Part shown: positions 3,963-60,139 of the stretch, one piece after another
How the letters are laid out: every line of letters begins with the position of its first letter
Position numbering within the stretch: position 1 is the first letter of the stretch
Assembly: GCA_002706765.1 (NCBI GenBank)
Contig: PAJV01000078.1
Coordinates: forward strand, 62,001-126,000
DNA: 64,000 bases
From: Gimesia sp.
Lineage (GTDB): Bacteria; Planctomycetota; Planctomycetia; Planctomycetales; Planctomycetaceae
Direction: 5' to 3'
Notes under the pieces: model-generated
What the model was told of the DNA's origin: nothing
What the model saw: the letters and a program-made list of their open reading frames with translations, nothing else
Database searches by the model: none
Position numbers and translations under genes: made by a program

Positions 3963-6302
3963 ATGGTGCTTAATCAACGGATGACATGTTGCCGGGCGAT
4001 GATCCTGTCGCTGCTGGTCCTGGGAAGTGGTTTGCTGAGTGCTGCTGATGTGACAGGAGCCGAGAAAAAACAGCCACTCAAGCTGGAAGCATCCACGTAT
4101 ACTTTTTCACCCGGGCCAGACTTTCAGTTTGAATTTCAGTCGCGCCTGATTCAGGCGGTTCCCGGTGATGTGTTGATTCTTAAAGCAGGGCACTATGAAT
4201 TGCAGTCTGGCTTAAACCTGGTGACCGATAATGTCACCATACGCGGGCAGGGGCATGAAAAAACGGTGCTCTCTTTCAAGAACCAGACAGATGGCAGTTT
4301 CGGACTGCTTGCCAGTGGAGATAACCTGGTTCTGGAAAATTTTGCCGTTGAAGATACCAGTCACAATGCCATCAAAGTATTAGGAGCAGAGAATGTCACC
4401 TTTCGCGGTGTCCGTACCGAGTGGACCGACGGGCCGAAAACGACGAATGGTGCTTACGGATTGTATCCGGTGCAATGCAAAAACGTATTGATCGAAAACT
4501 GTGTCGCCATTGGTGCTGCGGATGCGGGCATTTATGTCGGGCAGTCGACTGATGTCATTGTCCGCAACAGCCGCGCGGAAGCGAATGTTGCCGGTATTGA
4601 AATCGAAAATACCGTCAATGCCGACGTGTATGGGAACGTTGTGACGGGAAATACCGGCGGGTTGCTGGTCTTTGATCTGCCCGGACTGCCTCTGAAAAAT
4701 GGGAGGCATGTCAGGCTGTTTCAAAATCGGATTTTCAAAAATAACCTCGCGAACTTTGCGCCCGAAGGAAATATGGTAGCCTCTGTCCCTGCCGGAACCG
4801 GGATTCTGGTGATGGCCACGGACGAAGTGGAAATCTTTGAGAATCTCATCAGGGATAATCGTTCGTTCAATGTGTCTGTCGTCAGTTTTCTGATCTTTGG
4901 TAAAAAGATGAAGGACCCAGACTATGATCCCTATCCGGAAGGCATTTTCATTCACGACAATCAGATACAGGGGGGAGGCCAGGATCCCGACGGGGAACTG
5001 GGGCTGCTTTTGAAATCAATGACAGGCACCACGTTACCCGAGATTGTTTACGATGGCGTGATTGATACTCGCAAGCTGGTCGATGGAAAGATGCCAGCTG
5101 AAAAGAGCCTGCGATTGGCTGATAACGGAGACATCCGATTTCTGAATATCGATTTCGGAAATCTGACACCAGCAAATATTGCGACCGGAAAATACAGGCC
5201 CGAGGCTGATATGTCGTCTTTTACCGGAAGGCTGCCAGCGCTGAAGCCGGTGGAACTCCAGCCTCATGGACAACCGGAGCCGAATAAAAACCGGTCATTA
5301 CAGGTCTATTATGATGCCCCGGGTAAACTGTCGGAACTCGGTTTGTTCCAGGGAACGGGAGCGACACAGGAGCCTACCGATGACGTGATCCCCTACGATC
5401 TGCTGACAACGCTGTTTACCGATTACACCACCAAGCATCGTTTCGTACGTCTGCCGCAGGGAGAAAAAATCCGATTTCAGGAATCCGGTGTGCTGGAGTT
5501 TCCGACAGGCAGCATGTTAGTCAAAACGTTTTCTTATCTGAAGGATCAGCGTAATCCTGCTGCTGGTGAGCGACTGCTGGAAACTCGCGTGGAGTTTCTG
5601 AAAGAATCCGGCTGGTATGGATATTCCTACATCTGGAATGAAGAACAGACCGATGCCGCGCTCAGCCTGGGAGGCGGGGAAATTGATGTTTCCTGGATTC
5701 ACTCTGATGGTCAGAAGCGATCGACGCGGCATCTGGTGCCCAATGCGAATCAATGCATCAGTTGCCACAGCCAGCATGACAAGTACGTGCCCATTGGTCC
5801 TGCCGCTGCGAATTTGAATCGTATGAATCACTATGCAGACGGGGAAGAAAATCAGTTAGCCTACCTGACGCGTAAAGGTCTGTTGCAGGGAACTCCCGGC
5901 TTGAACAAGATCAGCAAGCTCCCCGATTTTTCTGATCCTCATTCCGGTACGGTCGATCAACGGGCCCGTGCCTATCTGGCTGTCAACTGTGCCCACTGTC
6001 ACAGCCCGGGCGGGAATGCCCGCACGACGGGGCTGGACTTGCGTTTTTCGCAACAGGATCCGGCCCGGTGGGGCGTCTGGAAAAATCCGGTGGCAGCAGG
6101 CAGAGGATCGGGAGGTCACAGTTATGACATTGTTCCCGGTGCCCCTGAGAAGTCGATCCTGATGCATCGTCTGCAGTCCAGTGATCTGGCAGCAAGGATG
6201 CCTAATATTGGAAATCGGGTCGTGCATCAGGAAGCAGTCGATCTGATCGGGCAGTGGATCAGTGAAATGCCAGTGGAACGATCCGACTCCGGTATGCCTT
6301 AG
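3963..6302 (+). CDS. Parallel beta-helix / diheme cytochrome c fusion, exported
   Basis: A 779-residue protein with a signal peptide (about residues 10-35, hydrophobic, ending near SAADVTGAE). Residues 40-400 are a right-handed beta-helix: repeated short strands such as NVTFRGVRTEW, NVLIENCVAIG, DVIVRNSRAEA and NADVYGNVVTG. Residues 440-775 match the SO2930-type two-heme cytochrome family, with CISCH at 598-602 and CAHCH at 676-680. In Shewanella and others the two parts are neighbouring separate genes (families TIGR03805 and TIGR03806); here they appear as one chain. It should be periplasmic and may couple carbohydrate binding or cleavage to electron transfer, which is inference. Its TAG stop is formed with the first base of the 90-bp repeat at 6300. 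Confidence 0.85.
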   Translation: MVLNQRMTCCRAMILSLLVLGSGLLSAADVTGAEKKQPLKLEASTYTFSPGPDFQFEFQSRLIQAVPGDVLILKAGHYELQSGLNLVTDNVTIRGQGHEKTVLSFKNQTDGSFGLLASGDNLVLENFAVEDTSHNAIKVLGAENVTFRGVRTEWTDGPKTTNGAYGLYPVQCKNVLIENCVAIGAADAGIYVGQSTDVIVRNSRAEANVAGIEIENTVNADVYGNVVTGNTGGLLVFDLPGLPLKNGRHVRLFQNRIFKNNLANFAPEGNMVASVPAGTGILVMATDEVEIFENLIRDNRSFNVSVVSFLIFGKKMKDPDYDPYPEGIFIHDNQIQGGGQDPDGELGLLLKSMTGTTLPEIVYDGVIDTRKLVDGKMPAEKSLRLADNGDIRFLNIDFGNLTPANIATGKYRPEADMSSFTGRLPALKPVELQPHGQPEPNKNRSLQVYYDAPGKLSELGLFQGTGATQEPTDDVIPYDLLTTLFTDYTTKHRFVRLPQGEKIRFQESGVLEFPTGSMLVKTFSYLKDQRNPAAGERLLETRVEFLKESGWYGYSYIWNEEQTDAALSLGGGEIDVSWIHSDGQKRSTRHLVPNANQCISCHSQHDKYVPIGPAAANLNRMNHYADGEENQLAYLTRKGLLQGTPGLNKISKLPDFSDPHSGTVDQRARAYLAVNCAHCHSPGGNARTTGLDLRFSQQDPARWGVWKNPVAAGRGSGGHSYDIVPGAPEKSILMHRLQSSDLAARMPNIGNRVVHQEAVDLIGQWISEMPVERSDSGMP

Positions 6303-6393
6303 ACTGTGTCCAGTTTTACTGTAGCGTCTCCAGGGGCATTTGAATCGAGTATAATAGATTGAGAGATGTTATGGTTAAATGTGATGCGCTCTA
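6300..6393 (+). repeat. Dispersed 90-bp element, copy A
   Basis: The core is 6302-6391 (90 bp), flanked by TA at 6300-6301 and TA at 6392-6393. It starts GACTGTGTCCAG and ends GATGCGCTC; the ends are weak inverted repeats (GACTGTGTC versus GAGCGCATC). It has no reading frame of note. The left TA plus the first G of the element forms the TAG stop of the cytochrome gene. The right TA is followed by G, consistent with an original TAG. Related copies lie at 26915, 43568, 59442 and 59534. Confidence 0.85.
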
Positions 6394-26586: not shown

Positions 26587-27137
26587 TTGGACGTGAAGGT
26601 GGTCTTCTCTGCGAATCAGAAGCGCTCTGGTGTGTTCTTTTCGCCTGCCGGGAACTCACCAGGTACCGCCTCTGTTGAACTGAATCGGTTTATAGACACC
26701 GAAGTCAGCCTCAGAACCGGGCTCTGGTCACTGGCTGGGACGCTTTCCGTTCCGGTAGTGGAGGGGAAGCTGCCAACTGTCGTGTTGGTACACGGCATCG
26801 ACCCACACAAGATCGGAAAGAAATGATTGGGCTTCCTCAGCCATTTCTGATCCTGCAGGGGCAGCGGGATTATCAGTCGGCGATGGACGACTTCGCGAAG
26901 TGAAAACAGGCTTTTAGGCTGGGGCAGTTTTTCGGTAGTCTCTTCAGGGCTGTTTGGGCCGAGTATCATAGATTGAAAGACGCTTCGGTTCATTGTGATG
27001 GGCTCTGCAAAACCGGAAGCCAGGTTGTCAGGTTCGAGGCCCGCCCTGAATCGAATCGCCCGTTGCTGGCAGGTGAGGAGCCGGGGGCTGCCGCGGATTA
27101 CATGATTCCAGGCAATGTGGCAAAGAGGGTGGTTTAG
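26587..27137 (+). pseudogene. Decayed alpha/beta hydrolase gene, split by a 90-bp repeat
   Basis: The first part reads DTEVSLRTGLWSLAGTLSVP and then KLPTVVLVHG, which is the beginning of a serine alpha/beta hydrolase core. A shift of frame with loss of the central part (including the nucleophile region) leads to PFLILQGQRDYQSAMDDFAK, which is the acid-residue region, followed by a TGA where the family has Trp, then KQAF. The repeat copy at 26915-27007 intervenes. After it, VRFEARPESNRPLLAGEEPG and ADYMIPGNVAKRVV match the C-terminus of the same family, with the catalytic His replaced (NRP for NHL). The gene is clearly dead. Remnants may begin further upstream, near 26470. Confidence 0.75.
26915..27007 (+). 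repeat. Dispersed 90-bp element, copy E (diverged)
   Basis: The core is 26917-27005 (89 bp), flanked by TA on the left and TG on the right. It aligns end to end with copy A: GGCTGGGGCAG for GACTGTGTCCAG, the shared TCTTCAGGG/TCTCCAGGG block, GAGTATCATAGATTGA, and the end GTGATGGGCTC. It lies within the hydrolase pseudogene, so an insertion event can be recognised. It is the most diverged of the five copies apart from copy D. Confidence 0.75.
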
Positions 27138-43129: not shown

Positions 43130-43570
43130 TTGTCAGTAGCAGAAAATAAAGCAGTTATGGTAAATTACGAAGGCATGTTCCTGCTGGACAGCGGCAAATT
43201 TGCTGCTGATCACGAAGGGACCGTTGCTCATCTGATGGAAATCCTCGAGAAGGCTGGTGCCGAAATTGTGGCACACCGCCCCTGGCAGGATGGCAAACTG
43301 GCTTATGAGATCGAAGGCCACATGAAAGGCCTGCATTATCTCGTCTACTTCACGATGCCAGGCAGTGGTATGGACCTGATTACCCGTGCCTGTCACCTGA
43401 GTGACATCGTCATTCGTCAGATGGTAATCAAGCAGCCTCAAACACTGTTTGATGCGATGGTCTCTGCCATCGACCCCAGTTCTGCTCCCGAAGCACCGGC
43501 AGAAGAGGTCAAAGGGCAGGCAGACGATGATGGTCCTGATTACGATGCCATCGACGATGATGAAGACTAG
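43130..43570 (+). CDS. rpsF: 30S ribosomal protein S6
   Basis: A 146-residue protein with the S6 ferredoxin-like fold (YEGMFLLDSG, HRPWQDGKLAYEIEGHMKGLHYLVYF, LSDIVIRQMVIKQP). The C-terminus is long and acidic (DDDGPDYDAIDDDED), as in other long S6 forms. The start is TTG at 43130 with GGGAG upstream; an ATG at 43157 (VNYEG) is the alternative. Its TAG stop comes from the target TA plus the first G of repeat copy B. Confidence 0.93.
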   Translation: MSVAENKAVMVNYEGMFLLDSGKFAADHEGTVAHLMEILEKAGAEIVAHRPWQDGKLAYEIEGHMKGLHYLVYFTMPGSGMDLITRACHLSDIVIRQMVIKQPQTLFDAMVSAIDPSSAPEAPAEEVKGQADDDGPDYDAIDDDED

Positions 43571-43661
43571 ACTGTGTCCAGTTTGACTGTAGCGTCTCCA
43601 GGGCCATTTGAGCCGCGTATAGTAGATTGAGAGACTCGATGGTTAAATGTGATACGCTCTA
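43568..43661 (+). repeat. Dispersed 90-bp element, copy B
   Basis: The core is 43570-43659 (exactly 90 bp), with TA at 43568-43569 and TA at 43660-43661. It is very similar to copy A (same ends GACTGTGTCCAG and the AATGTGATACGCTC end). It sits in the rpsF-ssb gap of an operon. As in copy A, the left TA and first G form the TAG stop of rpsF, and the right TA is followed by G, reconstructing a TAG. Confidence 0.85.
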
Positions 43662-56038: not shown

Positions 56039-56874
56039 CGGGTGACCCCGGATGTAATCCGGGTTGTCGCAGACAACGGGAGGTGGCAGTGTTGATGATG
56101 TCTGGTGAGAGAACGTGCCTCATTTTCTGAACTGAAGAGGCAGGTGGCGTTGCTTTGGGCCGATCGCTGCAGCAGGGACCTCTTGCTCGCTGCGCTCGTA
56201 CCGGATTTCATCCGGTAGCACCCAAGACATTCTTGGAACCCACCTTTTCCGGGTGACCCCGGATGTAATCCGGGGTTGTCGCAGACAACAGGAGGTGACA
56301 GAGTTGTTGGTGCCTGATGAGAGAACGCGTCTCATTTTTGGACTGAAGAGGCAGGCGGCATTGCTTTGGGTCGATCGCTGCAGCTGGGACCTCTTGCTCG
56401 CTGTGCTCGTACCGGATTTCATCCGGTAGCACCCAAGACTTTCTTGGAACCCATCTTTTCCGGGTGACCCCGGATGCAATCCGGGGTTGTCGCTAGACAA
56501 CGGGATGTGGCAGTGTTGGTGATGTCTGGTGAGAGAACGTGCCTCATTTTCTGAACTGAAGCGGCAGGCGGCATTGCTTTGGGCCTATCGCTGTAGCAGG
56601 GACCTCTTGCTCGCTGCGCTCGTACCGGATTTCATCCGGTAGCACCCAAGACATTCTTGGAACCCACCTTTTCCGGGTGACCTCGGATGTAATCCGGGGT
56701 TGTCGTGAGACAACAGGAGGTGGCAGTGTTGGTGATGTCTGGTGAGAGGACGCGACTCACTTTCTGAACTGAAGAGGCAGGCAGCATGGCCTTGTCCCGA
56801 TCGCTGCAGCTGGGACTTCCTGCTCGCTGTGCTCGTACCGGATTTCATCCGGTATCACCCGTTTTCGCGCACTA
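56039..56874 (+). repeat. Tandem array 1 of a 211-bp unit (four copies)
   Basis: Units start at 56039, 56250, 56461 and 56674 (periods 211, 211 and 213); the fourth is cut at about 56874. Each unit has several short hairpins: CCCGGATGTAATCCGGG, GTTGTC-GCA-GACAAC, and ACCGGATTTCATCCGGT, plus a conserved CCGATCGCTGCAGC core and GCTCGCTGCGCTCGTACC. Reading frames across it on both strands are not conserved and no start signal exists, so I treat it as non-coding. Function unknown. Confidence 0.85.
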
Positions 56875-56931
56875 TTTACTATAGGAACTTCCCAGTTACC
56901 TTCAGAGTTAACTACGCTCTATCAGGGTGGT

Positions 56932-58880: not shown

Positions 58881-59228
58881 CCTCATTTTCAGAACTGATG
58901 AGGCGGGTTGCTTATTTTGTACCGATCGCTGCAACTGTGACCTCCTGCTCGCTGCGCTCGTACCGGATTACATCCGGTAGCACCCGATGTTCAAGCACAT
59001 CAAATATATTTGGGTGACCCTGGATGCAATCCGGGGTTGTCGTAGACAACAGGAGGTGGCAGTGTTGGTGATGCCTGGTGAGAGATCGCCCCTCATTTTC
59101 TGAAATGAAGTGGTATGCAGCATTGCCTTGTACCGATCGCTGTAGCTGCGACCTCCTGCTCGCTGCGCTCGTACCGGATTGCATCCGGTACCACCCCGTA
59201 CTCGCTGGAATCAATCTTTTGCGGGTGA
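58881..59228 (+). repeat. Tandem array 2 of the 211-bp unit (1.6 copies)
   Basis: A partial unit at 58881-59010 is followed by a complete one from 59011 to 59221. It has the same hairpins as array 1 (ACCGGATTACATCCGGT, GTTGTC-GTA-GACAAC). It is in the same orientation as array 1, 41 bp after the purA stop, so the two arrays flank the response regulator and purA. Confidence 0.8.
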
Positions 59229-59441
59229 AACTATGAAAGAAGCTCGAACCGGTGGTGATAACAGGACTCGTGGCGGCGGTGTCTGTCGGATCTGATGGTT
59301 TATCCCTGCATCGTACTGAGCACCGGTGATTGATATTCAGCTGGGCGTGCTGCTGCGTTTCAGTAATATTGGTCGGGTGACTGTTCGCATTCTCTGATGT
59401 CGGGCTGACAGCAGTCGTCAAATTCGTCGGCGCTCGCGGTT

Positions 59442-59535
59442 CAGACTGTGTCCAGTTCTAATACAACGTCTCCAAAGCACTTTGGACCGGGTAGATTGGA
59501 TTGAGGGATGCTATGGTTGAATGTGATGCGCTCTG
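59442..59535 (+). repeat. Dispersed 90-bp element, copy C
   Basis: The core is 59444-59533, exactly 90 bp, flanked by CA and TG. It starts GACTGTGTCCAG and ends GATGCGCTC, exactly as copy A does. It shares its right flank TG with copy D, so the two lie head to tail. Confidence 0.8.
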
Positions 59536-59627
59536 TGCTGTATCCAGTTTTACTACAACGTCTCCAGGGCACTTTGGACCGGGTAGATTAGATTGAGAAA
59601 CGCAACGCCTGAATGTATTGCACTCAA
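59534..59627 (+). repeat. Dispersed 90-bp element, copy D
   Basis: The core is about 59536-59625, 90 bp. Its left end reads TGCTGTATCCAG and its right end TATTGCACTC, so the ends are decayed, but the internal CAACGTCTCCAGGGCACTTTGG block is shared with copy C. It follows copy C directly. Confidence 0.75.
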
Positions 59628-60139
59628 GATTGCGGAAATGCAGGCGATACGATTAATCATTTTTTATGCATCGTCCATTCTGCCCTGATTCAGGGCGGGG
59701 AGTCCGGACATGCGGTTCGGGAGGGAGTTGTTCATGATTCATAATGCTTACTCTGTCAGTGAAATTCTGAAGAAGAGGATGCCGATTTGCATTCCGATGA
59801 TCTGTGATCTTCGCGAAGGGCGTGACGCTGTCAAGAGGATTCAAAAACAAACGGGGTGGCGATACGGGTTGACAGGGAACCGATGTGCGGCGGTGCTGAG
59901 GCGGTACCGGGACGAAGCTTTGCGATGTGTGGCGACCCGCAGGATAACATCTCGAACGGGTGCGGTTTCAGGCAGTGAAGATCTGGAAAAAACAGGCTCA
60001 TTTGTCATGAAGATCAAGAACAGGTGGCCCGTGTTTCAGTGCACTGTAAACTGGGCACGCGCGCGACTCAGAATAGCGCTTATCGCCAGCGGCGCGAGCG
60101 GGTCAAGAGTAATTTATTCAGTAGATGTGTAAAGGATGC

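Follow-up and report, generated by a model that had tools for sequence, protein, structure and literature searches.

The closest described case to the element analyzed here is RUP, a non-coding repeat of 107 bp present in 108-110 copies per pneumococcal genome, for which IS630-Spn1 is the proposed mover (PMC2229807; PMC3049150; PMC10969869). In the available portions of these sources, RUP shares with the present 90-bp element IS630-like terminal inverted repeats (TIRs), TA target sites, and repeats that insert into one another. However, the host of RUP belongs to an unrelated phylum, and the genomes with the most copies of the 90-bp element yielded no intact partner IS. The 90-bp element also targets [C/T]TAG in a fixed orientation, an analysis with no counterpart in the portions of the RUP literature used. 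Among insertion sequences of the IS630/Tc1-mariner group, ISY100, a member of the IS630 family, inserts almost exclusively at TA and duplicates it, and IS630 prefers the TA in CTAG according to a title cited in the same, partly available paper (PMC2170065). TA duplication is common to these sequences and the 90-bp element, but they carry their own DDE_3 transposase, whereas the element carries none; for the 90-bp family, both TA duplication and a partner with DDE_3 and IS630 profile matches were found. Correia/NEMIS and ERIC are small TA-ended repeats with TIRs whose transcripts would form long stem-loops (PMC2229807). They resemble the 90-bp element in their TA ends, TIRs, and predicted stem-loops, a likeness of description. 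In contrast to the 90-bp element, and RUP excepted, the available part of that source reports no TIR-sharing IS for them. The accessible part of another study describes GTAG and CGTC REP repeats in planctomycetes (PMC3733652). These repeats are of another kind than the 90-bp element. Nezha, a cyanobacterial MITE, is reportedly an active bacterial MITE.

The 90-bp element is best regarded, with a probability of roughly 0.88, as a MITE mobilized in trans by an IS630-type transposase and inserted by cut-and-paste into [C/T]TAG. Its kind is known, and it appears to represent a new, undescribed family of IS630-linked MITEs. The initial annotation, which classed it as a Tc1/mariner-IS630-type miniature element, is supported by exact ends, TA duplication, empty sites, and an end-matching IS in the genus. 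Its statement that no description of the element was known agrees with the literature searched, where no planctomycete IS630-linked MITE was found (most subscription journals lay outside the scope of this search).

The window, meaning the whole 64-kb stretch of DNA analyzed, contains five copies of this non-coding element, all on the + strand. The copy at 6300-6393 (core 6302-6391) has TA at both ends, and its left TAG serves as the stop codon for the ORF at 3963-6302, which encodes a beta-helix protein. The copy at 43568-43661 also keeps both TAs and lies within the stop codon that ends the gene for ribosomal protein S6. Besides these two intact copies, three are worn: a decayed copy at 26915-27007 with an 89-bp core, TA on its left, and TG on its right, and the two members of a tandem pair, the first at 59442-59535 with CA/TG and the second at 59534-59627 with TG/AA instead of TA. 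The pair is arranged head-to-tail with a 92-bp period, corresponding to 90 bp and one shared dinucleotide. The other four copies are 67, 88, 77, and 72% identical to the 6300 copy (95 nt, ungapped repeat comparison). The family profile scored the five copies at 104.6 to 67.1 bits, compared with 7.8 bits for the best match in 20 dinucleotide-resampled windows. Because the five copies are themselves members of this profile, the independent evidence comes from the single-sequence genome search and the end-pattern searches described below. Repeat comparison and profile scores locate every copy that had initially been annotated, and the accompanying claim that the two best copies are flanked by TA on both sides is true of those at 6300 and 43568, and of only these. 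The shared orientation of the five copies is most simply read as chance, since the left-end pattern occurs genome-wide 39 times in forward and 49 times in reverse orientation on the contigs as stored.

A consensus of 44 copies reads TA-GACTGTGTCCAGTTTTACTGTAGCGTCTCCAGGGCCATTTGGACCGAGTATAATAGATTGAGAGACGCTATGGTTAAATGTGATGCGCTC-TA. The core is 90 bp long, and its ends, GACTGTGTCCAGTTTTACTGTAGCGTCTC and, in reverse, GAGCGCATCACATTTAACCATAGCGTCTC, are related but dissimilar. By direct reading of the consensus, the arms match at 21/31 positions, which bears out the initial description of the ends as imperfect inverted repeats. In the genome to which the window belongs (G000; 78 contigs, 7.9 Mb), a single sequence used as query against the whole assembly yielded 41 matches, including a 22-base piece. 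A covariance model built from the 44 copies identified at least 150 full-length copies, all with E-values of 2.1e-12 or better. This number is a lower limit, as all 150 scored candidates matched over the full model and the candidates totaled 1712. End-pattern searches of G000 allowing up to three mismatches found 88 left and 46 right ends, and reversed-pattern controls found none in the same genome.

A genome-wide count of copies, exact ends, and flanking TAs had been proposed as a check with the initial annotation. The copies are many, and their ends are sharpest in a congener, G014, where the core is exactly 90 bp in 49 of 51 copies and TA is present on the left in 49, on the right in 47, and on both sides in 45. 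This set combines 40 stretches around better-scoring matches with loci L128, L129, and L145, and counts five copies from two tandem arrays separately. TA at both ends is less general in the older G000 set, in which 42 of 64 copies have it on the left, 41 on the right, and only 30 on both sides. The G000 set comprises 58 fetched loci and the window, drawn from single-sequence, covariance, and end-pattern matches; 64 of 72 profile matches reached both model ends, and the remaining eight were dropped, the same filter being used for G014. Both sets are biased toward well-preserved copies. The ragged ends in G000 are best read as a sign of age, because mean identity is 81% among 57 of its copies as against 93% among 49 equal-length copies of G014. 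A solo left end at C62:45713 (L081) was considered as the end of a longer element; it looks instead like a copy that loses similarity internally.

Comparison with relatives provides direct evidence for insertion. At all three loci that could be compared at base level, the TA is single in the empty site and double in the filled one, in keeping with the target duplication expected from the initial annotation. The first is in the gene for ribosomal protein S6 (43130-43570; PF01250), at its TAG stop codon. This site is empty with a single TA in G008 (GAAGAA-TA-GAG) and G006 (GAAGAC-TA-GTG), and G014 is filled at the same place. Six more congeners lack the element there, with flanks too diverged for base-level reading. 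The G014 copy at L190 is missing from both G008 and G000; the uninterrupted sequence there is ATAT-TA-AGATT, a TTAA target. The duplicated bases are hence TA, and the adjacent G is part of the element, which rules out a 3-bp TAG duplication. The third locus is that of the G000 copy at L039, and both G014 and G008 lack the element there. For the 59442 pair, at which G008 and G014 carry a degenerate piece, congeners yielded no clean empty site.

The flanks of the copies reveal a marked target preference. Among the 45 G014 copies with both TAs, the target is CTAG in 20, TTAG in 21, ATAG in three, and TTAA in one. CTAG or TTAG therefore accounts for 41 of the 45, against a share of 5.6% among TA sites across the G014 stretches (P ~7e-47; CTAG 2.6% and TTAG 3.1%, element copies included). 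The element's orientation follows the target, since G014 copies occupy TTAG in 21 cases and its mirror CTAA in none (P ~1e-6). The 30 G000 copies with both TAs display the same [C/T]TAG tendency in blurred form: the left TA is preceded by T in 17, C in 10, and A in three, and the right TA is followed by G in 25 and A in five. A present-day A can be a later change, as the L039 empty site has G. We put forward only tentatively, and would not be surprised to see it fail, the proposal that target recognition by the element ends is polar, with the [C/T]TA side nearly always joined to the left end and the G side to the right end. A literature search on directional target use found no relevant paper.

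Such target choice has consequences for where copies come to rest. Insertion into [C/T]TAG in a fixed orientation leaves a TAG stop, from either side, when the target is a stop codon that starts with TA. Copies abut the stop of an ORF (an open frame of at least 100 codons, rather than a called gene) in 14 of 64 cases in G000 and nine of 51 in G014. The strand-specific background is 253/15747 over all TA sites in G000 and 135/7497 in G014, the latter control, like that of TA context in G014, including element copies. Against matched [C/T]TAG sites the excess shrinks, with backgrounds of 45/503 in G000 (P 0.004) and 33/225 in G014 (P 0.67); the matched controls and the G000 controls omitted listed copies. 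A special preference for stop codons was accordingly rejected, and the excess is owed mainly to the choice of target, perhaps together with selection. A newly inserted copy also rebuilds CTAG at its right end, so the tandem pair in the window is an expected outcome, as is a triple array in G014 that has a 92-bp period and one TA shared per junction.

A candidate partner for the element is present in the genus. DDE_3 (PF13358) matches occur in 9/17 congeners, and the transposase fragment of G000 is matched in 4/17 genomes of the genus, G000 included. Only in G016 and G001 was a complete IS found, which measures 1025 bp including both TAs. It has a helix-turn-helix reading frame and an overlapping DDE_3 frame, which in G001 measure 111 and 213 codons and meet at a run of A. 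The second frame matches PF13358 (E 5e-33) and the IS630 equivalog NF033545 (143 bits, cut-off 100), to which the first frame scores 46 bits. The IS of G001 begins in the stop codon of a DDE_5 transposase frame (L125:59-1093 and 1091-2115), a transposon placed at the end of a transposon. Both IS ends begin TAGAGCGCATCACA, and the ends of two more distant IS630 relatives on alphaproteobacterial plasmids also begin TAGAGCG (two inspected of 1000 matching records). The initial annotation had implied a partner IS630-type transposase elsewhere in the genome, with the same ends. An IS with matching ends does exist in the genus, but in the search with the transposase fragment G000 itself shows only two truncated copies, besides an end remnant (L099). 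The same search found no IS in G014 and G008, and the burst in those species was therefore driven by a since-lost transposase or an unseen relative. The sameness of the ends extends to the right arm of the MITE, which agrees with the IS ends at 24/27 (G016) and 25/27 (G001) bases, and fails for the left arm, which agrees at only 16-18/27.

These data leave room for a further explanation, according to which another autonomous element, since lost and with left and right ends like those of the MITE, mobilized the copies, and the IS630-type element found is only a cousin. This explanation, which we consider unlikely but the most substantial of the alternatives, draws on the dissimilarity of the MITE left arm to both IS ends and on the distribution of the IS, which was not found in G014 and G008, the genomes with the most MITE copies. 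G001, conversely, has an intact IS, yet only two MITE copies. Against the cousin stand the close agreement of the right arm and the end scan, which took in 30 of the 31 DDE_3 matches: at these 30 loci, only the IS lineage of G016 and G001 and its remnants exceeded 20/27 on a degenerate two-arm consensus, and no better match was seen. In addition, both intact IS copies lie in CTAG, as read directly from their flanks. Mobilization in trans may be due to the transposase found or to a lost close relative. In the scheme that best accommodates the sequence comparisons, an IS630 transposase would recognize the ends of the 90-bp element in trans, excise it, and reinsert it at the TA within [C/T]TAG, so that the TA is duplicated; such transfer would probably be of the cut-and-paste type. 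Nested insertion, with each new copy entering the CTAG rebuilt at the right end of an earlier one, would then produce 92-bp arrays with a shared TA. The element probably spreads by borrowing an IS630-type transposase.

A second alternative, which we judge improbable, is that the element is a REP-like or other structured RNA or DNA repeat, kept for a host function such as that of a terminator or mRNA stabilizer and spread by other means. Some copies sit directly behind genes, and the element can fold. A G014 copy forms a long hairpin (-34.2 kcal/mol, z -3.4 on the + strand; -21.5, z -1.5 on the - strand), z-scores for the + and - strands are -2.7 and +0.2 for the 6300 copy and -2.0 and -0.9 for the 43568 copy, and the + strand fold is the more stable in 42/44 copies. 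Tests of pairing in the named structure against 500 shuffles lean partly toward structure, with 90.7% of cells paired vs 89.8% (one shuffle as high), 10 cells with double changes vs 5.0 (11 as high), 38 further pair types vs 34.7 (31 as high), and a covariation score of 0.107 vs 0.100 (34 as high). However, related copies may exceed shuffles even without structure, and pairs with double changes on both sides number six vs 4.1, a value reached by 101/500 shuffles. With regard to the strand asymmetry of the hairpin, all six transition differences between the 31-base arms of the consensus, read directly, fall on the side that permits G-U pairs, an observation that carries little weight. RNAalifold gave approximately 0 kcal/mol for the element copies, and an Rfam search of the window found no match. 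Copies that abut stop codons present their left or right end without bias (6/8 in G000, 5/5 in G014). A conserved RNA was set aside on these last three results, and TA duplication and empty sites require transposition in any case. We take the hairpin to be a by-product of the inverted ends of the MITE; transcripts of other bacterial MITEs reportedly fold into long stem-loops as well (PMC2229807). Lastly, chance or tandem or segmental duplication in place of transposition, an origin to which the tandem arrangement of the 59442/59534 pair lends its one point, can be dismissed: the copies have exact ends amid differing flanks, resampled windows gave no comparable match, and the empty sites in relatives refute it.

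Among the relatives sampled, the element is largely confined to its genus. In 30 genomes searched, it is carried by 17/17 members of the genus, G000 included, and by 0/13 other relatives. The number of copies per congener ranges from one (G005, G009, and G012) and two (G001) to at least 135 (G000, G008, and G014). The sole copies matched in G005 (G005:C8, L111) and G009 (G009:C15, L116) lie beside the same flanking sequence, and this copy looks to have been inherited vertically, despite the lack of any other matched copy there. A sample of 120 genomes of the order, searched under stricter filters that may lose weak matches, contained 16 with matches, 15 from the same genus and one from another genus of the family (G042, genus g23). 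G042 gave 28 model matches with much weaker scores (best E 2.3e-11), which perhaps represent a diverged sister family of the 90-bp element. Other collections were scanned with the proviso that records near G000 may be excluded from them. An exact 33-base scan of genome contigs found four stretches in two planctomycete metagenome-assembled genomes, an exact 22-base scan of viral contigs found none, and a blastn search of plasmids with the element gave no match.

Other repeats are also present in the window. Those at 56040-56918 and 58917-59254 make up a second family of tandem copies of ~211 nt, which are 67-96% alike and contain palindromes of the GGATGTAATCCGG type; more copies lie ~2.1-2.3 kb downstream. 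The sequence at 59649-60125 includes a segment of ~200-470 bp with dozens of matches at ~72-87% in G000, G014, G008, and G006, several of them near contig ends in G000. ORFs over this segment have no Pfam family and nothing significant in NCBIfam, and the segment looks to be another dispersed repeat.

The 90-bp family adds to a planctomycete-like lineage a well-resolved, genus-wide group of MITEs with a traceable IS630 partner. It accounts for repeats that might otherwise pass for regulatory RNA, and it shows how a stop codon can survive insertion at TA. The aspect most deserving of a test is polar target use. If it is true, an IS630-type transposase uses an asymmetric 4-bp target directionally, and each insertion rebuilds a preferred CTAG at the right end, which would explain the head-to-tail arrays. 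The spread of copies among congeners, from one to at least 135, together with the empty sites and the intact IS in some species, makes this genus a natural system for the study of how MITE bursts start and stop.
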